Assembly (NCBI RefSeq): GCF_000266885.1
Contig: NC_018020.1
Coordinates: 3,162,001-3,226,000, forward strand
Direction of reading: 5' to 3'
Source: Turneriella parva DSM 21527
Lineage (GTDB): Bacteria > Spirochaetota > Leptospiria > Turneriellales > Turneriellaceae
Length of the DNA stretch: 64,000 nt
Numbering within the stretch: position 1 is the stretch's first letter; every line of letters begins with the position of its first letter. Below are positions 40,636 to 46,444 of the stretch, in pieces. The translations under genes and the position numbers were made by a program. Below the pieces are notes generated by a model, which made no database searches, was not told the origin of the DNA, and was given only the letters and a program-made list of their open reading frames with translations.

Positions 40636-40683
40636 CAATTTGGGTTACGAAATCCGCCGAGGCGGGTTTCGTAACCCAAATTG
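40636..40683. repeat. 23-bp hairpin between divergent genes
   Basis: CAATTTGGGTTACGAAA (40636-40652) pairs exactly with TTTCGTAACCCAAATTG (40667-40683), and the inner CCGCC/GGCGG plus one T-G pair closes to a two-base loop. It lies between the divergent SRPBCC and receiver-GGDEF genes and leaves no room for an ordinary terminator; a regulatory or mobile-repeat role is possible. Confidence 0.8.
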
Positions 40684-40741
40684 CACCTGCAGGCCAAAAT
40701 TGTGCTTTTCCGCCAAAGATGGGGGGCGCCGATGCCGAATA

Positions 40742-41764
40742 ATGACTATGGCCGGGGCAGAGCGTTTTTTGATACTCGAAGACGATGCGGCCTTTGCCCA
40801 GGGGCTGGGACAGGTGCTCGCGCCGCTGGGGCAGACCCGGTTTACCATGTATCCCGAAAGACTGCCCGAAATCATCGCCGATTTCAAACCGACACTGCTG
40901 ATCGTCGATTACAACCTGAACCATCCCACGCTGAATGGCATTAAAGCGACCCGCCTCGTGCGGCAGAATCCCGAAACGAACCTGTTACCGGTCTTGCTGC
41001 TGTCGGGCGAAGACGACATGGCAGTCATCGAAGAGGCCTTTAAGAGCGGCATAGACGACTATGTATTAAAACCCGTCATACCGCGGTTTCTGGTTGCGAA
41101 GATTGAGAACCTGCTCTTTCAATCGCGCAAGAAACTCAACGCACAGGCGCTCTCGGGTCTGCCGGGCAATGCCGCGATCGAGACGGAGTTCTATCTTCGG
41201 CTCGCGCGCAAGCGCCCGTTTTCAGTCGCGTACACAGACCTCGATAACTTTAAGCCGTTCAACGACGAAAAAGGCGTCAAGCGCGGCGATCAAGCGATAC
41301 AGGTAATTGCGCAGATTCTTTACCAGCTGCGGCGCGAGGCAACCCGCGAAGACCTGTTCATCGGCCACCTCGGGGGCGATGACTTCTTTTTGCTCGGGGG
41401 CAAGACGCAGGTGCGCATCGCGACGCGTAAACTCGAAGAGCAATTTGCCGCCGCGGCGAAGGCATTTTTCACTGCAGACGAACTGAAAAATGGCCATTAC
41501 CGCGGCAGCGACAGGCAGGGCCAGTTTCGGTTTTTTCCGCTGCTGACGCTTTCGACCGCGGTGCTCGACGGCATCACGAAAGATACGGTGGCGGATTTTC
41601 TTCAGCTGACGCAACTGGCGTCTGTGGCGAAAAAGGCCGCAAAAAAAGCTGAGAAGCGCGTCACCCATTTTGAGGCGGTTGAGCTCAAAGCGTCCAGCCG
41701 GCCGGCGAGCCTGTACAGGGAGACAAAAAGCCGTGCCAAAAAAAAGCGCAGCGCAGCGGGATAA
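40742..41764 (+). CDS. Response regulator with receiver and GGDEF-like domains
   Basis: A 340-residue two-domain protein. Residues 8-125 are a receiver: FLILEDDAAFAQ (acidic pair), TLLIVDYNLNHPTLNG with the phospho-accepting Asp, LLLSGEDD and DYVLKPV with the conserved Lys. Residues 150-300 are a GGDEF-type domain: FSVAYTDLDNFKPFND (metal-binding Asp) and LFIGHLGGDDFFLLGG, where the signature reads GGDDF in place of GGDEF. It may therefore be a weak or inactive cyclic-di-GMP cyclase. A basic tail follows (SRAKKKRSAAG). Start at the ATG 40742, with GGGGGG upstream; an ATG at 40748 also fits. Confidence 0.85.
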   Translation: MTMAGAERFLILEDDAAFAQGLGQVLAPLGQTRFTMYPERLPEIIADFKPTLLIVDYNLNHPTLNGIKATRLVRQNPETNLLPVLLLSGEDDMAVIEEAFKSGIDDYVLKPVIPRFLVAKIENLLFQSRKKLNAQALSGLPGNAAIETEFYLRLARKRPFSVAYTDLDNFKPFNDEKGVKRGDQAIQVIAQILYQLRREATREDLFIGHLGGDDFFLLGGKTQVRIATRKLEEQFAAAAKAFFTADELKNGHYRGSDRQGQFRFFPLLTLSTAVLDGITKDTVADFLQLTQLASVAKKAAKKAEKRVTHFEAVELKASSRPASLYRETKSRAKKKRSAAG

Positions 41765-42636: not shown

Positions 42637-43572
42637 ATGAAAGAGATTATCGTCGCAGCGCCCAGGGGATTCTGCGCCGGCGTCGATCGCGCGATTTCGA
42701 TCGTCGAAAAGGCACTCGAAGTTTATGGGGCGCCTCTCTATGTTCACCATGAAATCGTACACAACAAGCACGTGGTCGCGGGGCTGCGCGAAAAGGGTGT
42801 CGTCTTCGTCGATACGATCGATGAAATACCAGCCGCGCAGACCGTTATCTTCAGCGCGCATGGTGTTTCGCCTGCCGTCGTCGCCCTCGCGAAAGAAAAG
42901 AATCTCAAAATTCTCGATGCCACCTGCCCGCTGGTGACGAAGGTGCACATTGAGGCCCGGCGCTATGCGCGCGAAGGCTATAAGATTGTGCTCATCGGGC
43001 ACAAAGACCATATCGAAGCGCGTGGTACCTATGGCGAGGCGCCAGACCAGATGACGATTGTCGAGACGCTTGCCGACATTGATTTATTGGCATTTTCACC
43101 CACAGAGAAGTTGGCCTACCTGACACAGACGACACTTTCTGTGCGCGACACGCGTGGGCTGATCGAGCGCCTGCGCGAACGTTTTCCGCAGATCGAAGGC
43201 CCGAGCTCGAGCGACATCTGCTATGCGACGACGAACCGGCAAGAGGCCGTTTCGGCGATTGCGCCGAAGGTAAAAGTAATGTTCGTGATCGGTTCGCGCA
43301 ATTCGAGCAATTCGAATCGCCTCAAAGAACTCGCCGAATCAGAGGGCACCCGGGCATTTCTTATCGATAACGCGAATGATATTTCAACGGAGCAATTGGC
43401 GGGGGCAGATTCAGTGGGCCTCACTGCCGGCGCGTCGGCGCCCGAAGTTCTGGTGCAGCAGGTGACGGCAAGGCTCAAAGATGAATTCGGCTTCATGACT
43501 GTCAGTGAGCTGCGCCTGAAAGAAGAAGACGTGATTTTCAAGCTCCCCAAAGAATTGCTCACCGCTTCGTAA
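42637..43572 (+). CDS. ispH: 4-hydroxy-3-methylbut-2-enyl diphosphate reductase
   Basis: A 311-residue iron-sulfur enzyme, the last step of the MEP isoprenoid pathway making IPP and DMAPP. The three cluster cysteines are visible in PRGFCAGVDRA, LDATCPLVTKVH and SSDICYATTNRQEAV. His residues in YVHHEIVHNKHVV and FSAHGVSP and the GSRNSSNSNRL motif bind substrate. Length is normal. Its stop overlaps the next start (TAATG). Confidence 0.97.
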   Translation: MKEIIVAAPRGFCAGVDRAISIVEKALEVYGAPLYVHHEIVHNKHVVAGLREKGVVFVDTIDEIPAAQTVIFSAHGVSPAVVALAKEKNLKILDATCPLVTKVHIEARRYAREGYKIVLIGHKDHIEARGTYGEAPDQMTIVETLADIDLLAFSPTEKLAYLTQTTLSVRDTRGLIERLRERFPQIEGPSSSDICYATTNRQEAVSAIAPKVKVMFVIGSRNSSNSNRLKELAESEGTRAFLIDNANDISTEQLAGADSVGLTAGASAPEVLVQQVTARLKDEFGFMTVSELRLKEEDVIFKLPKELLTAS

Positions 43573-45422
43573 TGCGCTTTCTGCTCTGCATATTTCTTGC
43601 GACTCTGCCTCTGGCGGCGCAGACTTATGACGAGGTGTTGGCGCTCACCAAACAGGGTATCATAGCCTACAACCAGAAGCGTCTTTCTGAATCGCGCCAG
43701 ATGCTCGCGAATGCACTCGATTTTGATTCGACCTGGAGACCCACTGTGCTGCACCACGGCAAAGCGTATGCCGACCTGCTCATTGCAGAATTGCACATAC
43801 GCAACACAGTCAAACTGATAGCGTTTGAAAAATTCGAAAACGCGGAGCGCGAACTCGATGAAGCCGAAGCGACGTTTCCCGGGCATTTACGCATTCCCGA
43901 ACTGCGCGAACTGCTCTTAAAGAAGCGTGCTGATAATACGAAGCAGATTTTGCTGAAGATGCCCGAAGCCAAGCGCAAGGCTTACGAAGAGCAGATGCAA
44001 AAGGCACAGGCGGCGATGGATGCCTCGAAGTATGCCGAGGCTATGCACTTTTACAGCGGTGCACTCAAAATCGCACCCGATTCGCTCGATGCCAAAATGG
44101 GGTACGCCGAAGCGGAACGGTTGCTCAACCAAGAAGACGGCGATCAAAAGGTCGCAGGCCTCTTTCGCCAGGCCGAGAAACATGAAAAGGACCGCCGCTT
44201 CGCGCAGGCTGTTTCGGTATACGACAAGATTCTGCGCATCGAACCCCGAAACAGTCAGGCTATAGAGCGCAGGGCGGCGCTCATCGATTTTATGCAACAG
44301 CAGCTCGGCAAAGGCGAGCGCAAAAACCTCGCGAAAGAATACCTGCTGAGCGGCAATGAGGCGTTTCGTAAAACAGACTACAACCTGGCGATCGAGCACT
44401 ACCGTGTCGGTCAGGCGCTCGACCCGAAGCTTGCCAACTGGGATGAACTGATCAAAAAGGCGATGGCCGCCAAAAAAGCCCAGGAAGAAAATCTCTACAC
44501 CGACCGGCTCAAAGAACTCGAGCGCCGCTACCAGTCAGCGATGCTGCAGCTGTTGCTCGAGAATTATCCGGCGGCGATTGAAGACCTAGAGGTTGTGATT
44601 TCGATTGCGACGCAGTTTAAACAAGACGAAACGAAAAAACACGCCGAACAGCTGCTGCAGCGCGCGAAAGAGGCGATGCTGCGGCAAGACGACGAGTTCA
44701 TCACGCGCGACTCGCCTTACTTTAATTTCGTACAGTCTTTAACTTCATTGGGCATGACGAGCTACAAAAACCGGGACTGTATTGCCACGCAGCAGCATTT
44801 TGGGGCGATTGTAGAGATATTTCCCAAAAACAGAATATCGAACCAGTACATTCTTTCATGCACGATTATTCTGAACCCCGAACGCAAAGACGGCATCATT
44901 CAAGATCTGATCGATACGATCTACCGCACGAAAGATACCAATGCATACGAAGCCCGGCGCTTTTTCGAGATTCTGAAATTCATAGACCCGAAAAATCCCG
45001 TGATACCGCAGCTCGAACGCGAGCTCGCCGAAAAGACGCAGCTGCTGAAAAAATCGGTGCAGCCCGCAGAATTTCTCGAAGCCCTGTATAAAAAGGCTTT
45101 GCTATTATCGCAGAGCGACCCCGAGGCGGCGTTGCAGGTGCTGCGGCAGCTTCTGGCCGAAGACCCCGATAACGCGAAAGCGCGCGCGCTTTTTGCCCGT
45201 ATCGAAGGGCGTATCAACCGCGCCAAGTGGGCCGAATCGGATATTCCGATTGCGCCCCGCGCGATGAAGGCCTACGCAGACGGCATCGTCTATTACAACA
45301 CCGGGCAGCTGGCAGAAGCCCGTGCCTCGTTTGCACTGGCGCTCGAGCTGGCCCCGAATTTCGACCGGGCTGTCGTTGCGCTCAAAAAGTGCGACTCGTA
45401 TGCGAAGGGGGCTAAGTTCTGA
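43572..45422 (+). CDS. Large exported TPR-repeat protein
   Basis: A 616-residue protein. The signal peptide MRFLLCIFLATLPLAAQ is followed by many TPR units, such as ALTKQGIIAYNQKRLSESRQMLANALDFDSTW, AMDASKYAEAMHFYSGALKIAPDSLDAKMGYAEAERL, VYDKILRIEPRNSQAIERRA, LSGNEAFRKTDYNLAIEHYRVGQALDPK, and near the end AYADGIVYYNTGQLAEARASFALALELAPNFDRAVVAL. It is expected to be a periplasmic scaffold. Coupled to ispH by TAATG, and the next gene begins over its stop. It precedes a CHAT-like protein gene. Confidence 0.85.
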   Translation: MRFLLCIFLATLPLAAQTYDEVLALTKQGIIAYNQKRLSESRQMLANALDFDSTWRPTVLHHGKAYADLLIAELHIRNTVKLIAFEKFENAERELDEAEATFPGHLRIPELRELLLKKRADNTKQILLKMPEAKRKAYEEQMQKAQAAMDASKYAEAMHFYSGALKIAPDSLDAKMGYAEAERLLNQEDGDQKVAGLFRQAEKHEKDRRFAQAVSVYDKILRIEPRNSQAIERRAALIDFMQQQLGKGERKNLAKEYLLSGNEAFRKTDYNLAIEHYRVGQALDPKLANWDELIKKAMAAKKAQEENLYTDRLKELERRYQSAMLQLLLENYPAAIEDLEVVISIATQFKQDETKKHAEQLLQRAKEAMLRQDDEFITRDSPYFNFVQSLTSLGMTSYKNRDCIATQQHFGAIVEIFPKNRISNQYILSCTIILNPERKDGIIQDLIDTIYRTKDTNAYEARRFFEILKFIDPKNPVIPQLERELAEKTQLLKKSVQPAEFLEALYKKALLLSQSDPEAALQVLRQLLAEDPDNAKARALFARIEGRINRAKWAESDIPIAPRAMKAYADGIVYYNTGQLAEARASFALALELAPNFDRAVVALKKCDSYAKGAKF

Positions 45423-45433
45423 AATATCTGCTC

Positions 45434-46444
45434 TTGACTGAAAGCTCGGCTGCCGCCCGCAAGAAAAGCAGAGCCTCGGGCATTGCCGCGATCGTCAGCG
45501 ATGACTTTACACACCTTTTACGCATCGAAGACCTGCGCCGCCGCAAAAACCTGACGCCTTGGATTCGCCGCAAGAACTCGGTGCCGGTTGATGTGCGCAT
45601 CAGGTTTCGCGCTAACGGCGAACACCCGCTGGCCGCAGCGGAGTTTCGGCCATTTATCGAAGCGGCACGCCGCCCCGGTAGCCCGCAGAGTGAAGTGCGC
45701 ATTCACGGCGTCGCGGAAAAATTTGTGCTGCATGTTGGCGGTGAAGGCCTGTTGTCAGCTCTGGCTTTCGACCGTAGCATCATCCGCCTTAGAAGCGAGC
45801 TGAAGCGAATACAACAGGTGCTAGGCAGCTTTCGTGTGACGCTCGTTTCTGATTCGATGGCAGAACTAAGCGAGCTCTACCGGCTGAAACTCGCCACGGG
45901 CATCACGCTACAGGGCGAAAGGCCGCTGACCCGAAGAACCCGGTTTCGCCGTGAAATCAGAGACGTGCTGGTGCTCACGAATATTTCGGGCAGCGCTTTG
46001 CCGATGCTCGAGCACGCGCTGCCATTCTGGTCGAAGGGTGTTCAGGGTTTTCGCTTTCGCCATGTCTACGGCCAGTTGAGCCAGCGGCGCGTTGAATCGG
46101 CACTTGAGATGCGGGAGTGGCAGCTCGTCGTCTACCGCGGGCACGGGTCGGTTGCGGGTGGGAAACTTTGCCTTAACCTCAGCGATGGTGCATACGCCAT
46201 GCCGCAGTTGAATACAGCGCTCTATGTGCACAGCGCGTGCCTTGCACAGGGGGAGAACCTGTCGCTGCATGATTTGCCGGCGCAGAACACACTCACTCCG
46301 CTGGAATATCTCAGCGATTTTGACGATGCCAGCCTCATGGTGGTCTTGCTGGAGCGCTACCAGGCAACAGGTTCGCTGCCGGCTGCGATTCGCGCGGTGC
46401 AGCAGATTTATCCGCAGTTCGTTTGCCTCTCTACTGGCCCATGA
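45434..46444 (+). CDS. CHAT-like (caspase-fold) protein
   Basis: A 336-residue protein without signal peptide. The C-terminal half fits a CHAT/caspase-like peptidase: DVLVLTNISGSALPMLEHALPFW (first strand and helix), then LVVYRGHGS with candidate catalytic His237, GKLCLNLSDGAYAMPQL (strand of the type L.L.dg.....), and ALYVHSACLAQGE with candidate Cys269. These give the His...Cys dyad and its hGHG and SAC contexts. The N-terminal half is basic with no recognised domain. The listed start is TTG; the in-frame CTG at 45419 overlapping the TPR stop gives a natural-looking N-terminus (KYLLLTES). Proteolytic activity is inferred. Confidence 0.65.
   Translation: MTESSAAARKKSRASGIAAIVSDDFTHLLRIEDLRRRKNLTPWIRRKNSVPVDVRIRFRANGEHPLAAAEFRPFIEAARRPGSPQSEVRIHGVAEKFVLHVGGEGLLSALAFDRSIIRLRSELKRIQQVLGSFRVTLVSDSMAELSELYRLKLATGITLQGERPLTRRTRFRREIRDVLVLTNISGSALPMLEHALPFWSKGVQGFRFRHVYGQLSQRRVESALEMREWQLVVYRGHGSVAGGKLCLNLSDGAYAMPQLNTALYVHSACLAQGENLSLHDLPAQNTLTPLEYLSDFDDASLMVVLLERYQATGSLPAAIRAVQQIYPQFVCLSTGP

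Follow-up and report, generated by a model that had tools for sequence, protein, structure and literature searches.

A conserved family of predicted CHAT/separase-like cysteine peptidases genetically linked to a TPR-repeat gene in one spirochaete order

In a 64,000-nucleotide stretch of the Turneriella parva DSM 21527 genome (NC_018020.1, positions 3,162,001 to 3,226,000; hereafter the window, meaning the whole stretch), three genes with overlapping ends lie on the forward strand: ispH (42637-43572), a gene for a TPR-repeat protein (43572-45422) and a third open reading frame (45419-46444) encoding 341 amino acids. The organisation of the locus, its linkage in relatives, the predicted fold of the third product and the invariance of a histidine and a cysteine within it provide good support for a real, conserved and previously unrecognised family of CHAT/separase-like cysteine peptidases with a TPR gene in trans. 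We consider that the window's member is probably a cytoplasmic regulatory protease tied genetically to an envelope TPR protein; the first-pass annotation's description of a 'novel two-gene protease system' is plausible.

The fold was predicted with AlphaFold2 from 11 sequences (predicted local distance difference test score 84.4, predicted template modelling score 0.80), and the model was superposed on known structures by VIA-align and searched against them by Foldseek. Residues 182-338 run through a strand, helices, a strand, a helix, a strand at 236-240 leading into RGH, a hairpin, and a strand at 268-271 leading into SAC, followed by a further strand, two helices and a last strand, an order that is overall of caspase type. 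Superposition on SAVED-CHAT gave a Z score of 13.2 over 158 residues at a root-mean-square deviation (rmsd) of 3.0, with MALT1 (12.8) and caspase-7 (12.5) close behind; SAVED-CHAT, the Craspase protease TPR-CHAT, MALT1, separase and caspases were tied at about 12-13. The best Foldseek matches were to DdvA (E values of 2.8e-7 and 3.4e-7), and Craspase, separase and DdvA aligned over nearly the whole chain including its N-terminal half, mostly at an rmsd of 5 to 7. Structure prediction, proposed earlier as a check, thus placed a caspase/CHAT fold in residues 176-341 (45944-46441), behind an N-terminal alpha/beta domain of residues 1-175 (45419-45943) that is covered by superposition of the full model over residues 1-341.

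Homologues point the same way. A search with the single sequence recovered the protease gene in 12 of 61 genomes, including the window's own; a profile built from those 12 rows recovered the same 12 from the order's 18 genomes, with no further homologue in the remaining 380 of 392 genomes of the phylum. A thirteenth genome (G003) retains only the first residues of the protease at a contig end, bringing the count to 13 of 18, and in the searches made the gene appears confined to a single spirochaete order. When genome contigs were scanned with one short degenerate pattern, the 10 relatives found were all in spirochaete or uncultured metagenome-assembled genomes. The other 11 sequences share 17-44% identity with the window's protease, and only eight columns are invariant among the 12: Y239, R240, G241, H242, H271, C274, P294 and D300. 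The presumed catalytic base His242 (46142-46144, in YRGH) and the presumed nucleophile Cys274 (46238-46240, in HxxC) each closely follow one of the strands named above, and are separated by 32 residues in 10 homologues and 30 in two. Loss of either residue had been set beforehand as a refuting observation, and both were kept in 12 of 12; as two of only eight invariant columns at such low identity, they make the match more than a chance resemblance. Within the genus, six pairwise comparisons of four members gave identities of 74-80% for ispH and 63-73% for the TPR protein, but 31-38% for the N-terminal half of the protease and 40-48% for its CHAT domain, so that the protease diverges far more rapidly than the genes beside it, yet its dyad does not change, a pattern that suggests conserved chemistry with shifting partners or substrates. 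Rapid change of this kind, and the lack of detected similarity to Pfam CHAT, might also be expected of a caspase-fold relic or adaptor devoid of catalysis, but the presence of both His and Cys among so few invariant columns makes such a role very unlikely.

Linkage to the TPR gene is equally persistent. A full-length TPR orthologue was present in 15 of the 18 genomes of the order, and the protease gene lay next to it in 10 of the 13 genomes with a protease; in one of these ten (G001) the 5' end of the TPR gene is cut by a contig end, and in two further genomes (G003 and G010) contig ends cut the locus in a manner consistent with adjacency. The tight linkage to a TPR-repeat gene claimed at first pass therefore extends to 12 of 13 genomes. 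Across the order the protease was never present without the TPR gene, occurring in 13 of 15 genomes with it and in none of three without it (Fisher 0.012, uncorrected for kinship); neither gene was found in G007 (54% complete), G012 or G013. The association spans two families at a CHAT identity of only 17-20%. Directly 5' of the TPR gene, ispH was found in all nine loci compared (the window, L054-L056, L060, L062 and L063-L065; L058 and L059 were left out of this comparison). Taken with a family that keeps ispH and the TPR gene but has no protease, these nine loci make ispH-TPR look like the wider pair, to which the protease looks to have been either added, or from which it was lost in one family.

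Several results weigh against reading the protein as a CHAT protease that works with the TPR protein, beginning with the fold itself. Middling Z scores are common in superpositions of this kind, and the N-terminal domain taken by itself had no clear structural match: its best scores, 6.8 to a YTH domain (79 residues) and 6.2 to pantothenate kinase (75 residues), lie below the level of trust, and separase and Csx29 were absent from the listing for this domain, which excludes nothing. Because the N-terminal half alone gave no trusted match, we only tentatively suggest that it stands where Csx29 and separase have their pseudo-caspase domain. At the sequence level, no credible Pfam, NCBIfam or PADLOC family was found for the protease, and none of the 12 members matched Pfam CHAT (PF12770) at E values up to 10, a model that finds other CHAT proteins in 16 of the 18 genomes of the order and in 110 of 198 in a phylum sample. 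Comparison by hhalign with 36 known CHATs was weak (E 0.0054, score 24.97), although His, Cys and an Asp-Asp stretch fell roughly in register. This score was reached by none of 300 column-shuffled and two of 300 block-shuffled decoys, but 100 column shuffles made earlier peaked at 28.9 against 25.0 for the protease, so this link is suggestive only. Searches of PDB sequences with the single sequence and the profile (E up to 10) returned no CHAT or caspase match. The CHAT assignment is carried by structure and not by sequence.

Further counterpoints concern the pairing. In G008 the protease gene (contig C117, L066:5703-6599) stands behind flagellin-like genes, at a distance from ispH-TPR; its N-terminal half is shorter, but its His and Cys are intact. 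In two of the 15 genomes with a TPR gene (G014 and G016, from one family; L063:4770-6674 and L064:4761-6782) other genes follow ispH-TPR and the protease is missing. Predicted compartments also differ. Hydropathy reading, as opposed to a trained predictor, gave a signal-peptide-like N-terminus for 14 of 14 complete TPR orthologues, the truncated L053 being set aside; in the window this segment is MRFLLCIFLATLPLAA (43572-43619, + strand). The window's protease has no signal-like start and no membrane segment, its highest 19-residue Kyte-Doolittle mean being 1.21, and the highest such mean among the 12 homologues (1.88) falls within the chain of L010. An earlier caveat, that the signal peptide of the TPR protein argues against direct interaction, has been strengthened by these results: with signal-like N-termini on every complete TPR orthologue, and neither such a segment nor room for one on the protease, a direct partnership is not well supported, and if the TPR protein is exported, regulatory contact between the two would be hard to achieve. 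This split is the main puzzle of the system: the two proteins may meet before the TPR protein is exported, may be joined by a third component, or may never touch.

On the last of these readings, a cytoplasmic CHAT protease shares a transcript with an envelope TPR protein to which it is unrelated, and the two have no functional contact. Both the difference in predicted compartment and the loci in which the protease lies elsewhere, or is missing (as in the two genomes of the family retaining ispH-TPR), favour this reading; linkage maintained across two families at so low an identity, and the lack of any protease without a TPR gene, speak against it, leaving it a possibility to which we give limited credence. 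We are similarly hesitant about a second possibility, in which the two proteins assemble into a single complex that would be a two-chain counterpart of Csx29 or separase, with the TPR superhelix restraining the protease or presenting its substrate. The gene order of TPR, accessory domain and CHAT matches the domain order of fused TPR-CHAT as given in PMC10028731, the stop of one gene overlaps the start of the next, CHAT never occurs without TPR, and the full model superposes on the protease portion of Craspase. Set against these are the signal-like N-termini of the TPR proteins facing a CHAT protein with no export signal, the two genomes with TPR and no CHAT, and the one in which the genes are separated. 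Alternatively, the protease could cleave TPR protein that is not yet exported or is misdirected. Gene linkage is tight, and CHAT proteases can act on the product of a neighbouring gene, as Csx29 does on Csx30 (PMC10028731), but a cleavage site was not identified and two of 15 genomes keep the TPR protein with no CHAT, making its role as a substrate unlikely.

We propose that the third gene product acts in the cytoplasm as a cysteine endopeptidase of the CHAT/separase type (clan CD), in which an accessory domain in the pseudo-caspase place would precede the caspase-fold domain, and His242 would activate Cys274. Its translation would be coupled within an ispH-tpr-chat operon, and the protease would show a genetic dependence on the TPR gene, the product of which is most probably exported; its activity or target may be tied to the TPR protein or to the envelope process that this protein serves. 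Our guess at substrate and trigger is that, for example, a cytoplasmic substrate is cleaved when that envelope process fails. One speculative version, which we regard as improbable, is an export-failure switch, in which the TPR protein, being secreted under normal conditions, would encounter the protease only if secretion stalled; TPR precursor left in the cytoplasm would then bind and activate (or feed) the protease, leading to cleavage of a cytoplasmic substrate. If true, this would amount to a split TPR-CHAT with the membrane separating its halves up to the point of envelope failure.

The first of the three genes is ispH/lytB (HMBPP reductase; Pfam LYTB, E 9.3e-96), and its TAA stop is overlapped by the ATG of the TPR gene at 43572, an order of genes also present in relatives. 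The TPR protein has 616 amino acids, with six stretches matching Pfam TPR_2 (E 4.6e-18). Following it, the first-pass annotation had correctly recognised an open reading frame carrying YRGHG and VHSACLAQGE, with His and Cys 32 residues apart, but its start at TTG 45434 (336 amino acids) is replaced here by CTG 45419 (341 amino acids), and H237/C269 accordingly become H242/C274. An in-frame TAA at 45413-45415 rules out any start upstream of 45416, and CTG 45419 is the most likely start since the aligned N-termini of relatives (LKY/MKY) begin at its position, the start overlaps the TPR stop in six genus members as CTGA (four) or TTGA (two), and a Shine-Dalgarno-like AAGGGGG (45405-45411) lies 7 nucleotides before it, with similar A/G-rich stretches in genus members. 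Five other genomes examined have an ATG start, and an LKY/MKY/MNY motif opens the protein in 10 of these 11 genomes. The basic character ascribed to the protease is borne out by an isoelectric point of 10.0, with 46 Lys and Arg against 32 Asp and Glu.

The TPR and protease genes are separate open reading frames, lying in different frames and overlapping by 4 nucleotides, and so do not encode one polypeptide. Fusion by frameshifting would require ribosomes to slip by -1 at the stop of the TPR gene, and was rejected because no slippery heptamer was seen by eye in the junctions and because, outside the genus, the TPR stop and the ATG start stand in other relations. A mobile or phage origin was likewise rejected: no relative was found in viral contigs (one short pattern) or plasmids, there was no viral structure match at E 0.001, and the GC content of the protease gene, overall and at third codon positions (GC3), resembles that of the two genes upstream. 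Nor did the locus resemble a defence system, as PADLOC gave no family for five proteins (the window's two and three further CHAT homologues), and the Pfam-matched neighbours are a DAGK-type kinase, a response-regulator plus GGDEF-domain protein (40640-41764, upstream of the locus), ispH, a methylguanine methyltransferase, a gyrase/topoisomerase IV A subunit and a fructosamine-kinase type protein. The RAMP family PF03787 (Cas7-11) had no match anywhere in the host genome (4.41 Mb, two contigs), in a search whose controls were positive in four of 14, so that we see no link to type III-E CRISPR; the statement that CRISPR genes are lacking nearby holds, with no recognised defence genes at the locus. 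Elsewhere the host genome (C1:1998609-1999421, L075) encodes another CHAT protein, this one canonical (665 amino acids; PF12770, E 1.4e-25), which has counterparts of similar size in much of the order and ones of ~600 amino acids in the class.

These results add a CHAT-fold protease family unseen by Pfam, NCBIfam and PADLOC, in a setting free of CRISPR and recognised defence genes, and cooperation within the pair, if it occurs, would illustrate how the fused TPR-CHAT/separase design could be spread over two genes and would link a protease of this kind to the cell envelope. Searches of the open-access literature listed no paper naming this pair in its title or at the beginning of its abstract. 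The host's canonical CHAT shares the same catalytic layout by eye (FAGH, NSC), but is recognised by Pfam, and its family aligns only weakly to the protease family. DdvA (PDB 8rot, 8rw5) aligns over 272 residues (DdvA 625-991; Z 11.7, rmsd 5.1); in contrast to our 341-residue protein with no membrane segment, it is a large transmembrane anti-sigma factor according to its PDB title, and the signal that inactivates it is stated as unknown in PMC4374960. Separase shares a two-domain protease part and an H/C dyad, with 281 residues aligned in the human enzyme (7nj1; Z 12.6, rmsd 6.6) and 255 in that of Chaetomium (5fby), but no helical-repeat region is joined in cis to the window's protease, and searching PDB sequences did not recover separase. 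In Csx29, the TPR-CHAT of Craspase, a helical domain at the N-terminus is followed by a TPR domain and then by two CHAT domains, CHAT1 being a pseudo-caspase and CHAT2 active and similar to separases (PMC10028731); published dyads include H585/C627 and H2003/C2029 (PMC9729208) and H615/C658 (PMC10028731). The His-Cys spacing of Csx29 is 42-43 as opposed to 32 here, and the TPR of our system resides on a separate, signal-peptide-bearing protein; yet the two share an accessory and a CHAT domain that superpose over 274 residues (Z 13.1, rmsd 5.1), a His/Cys dyad, and TPR as the partner.

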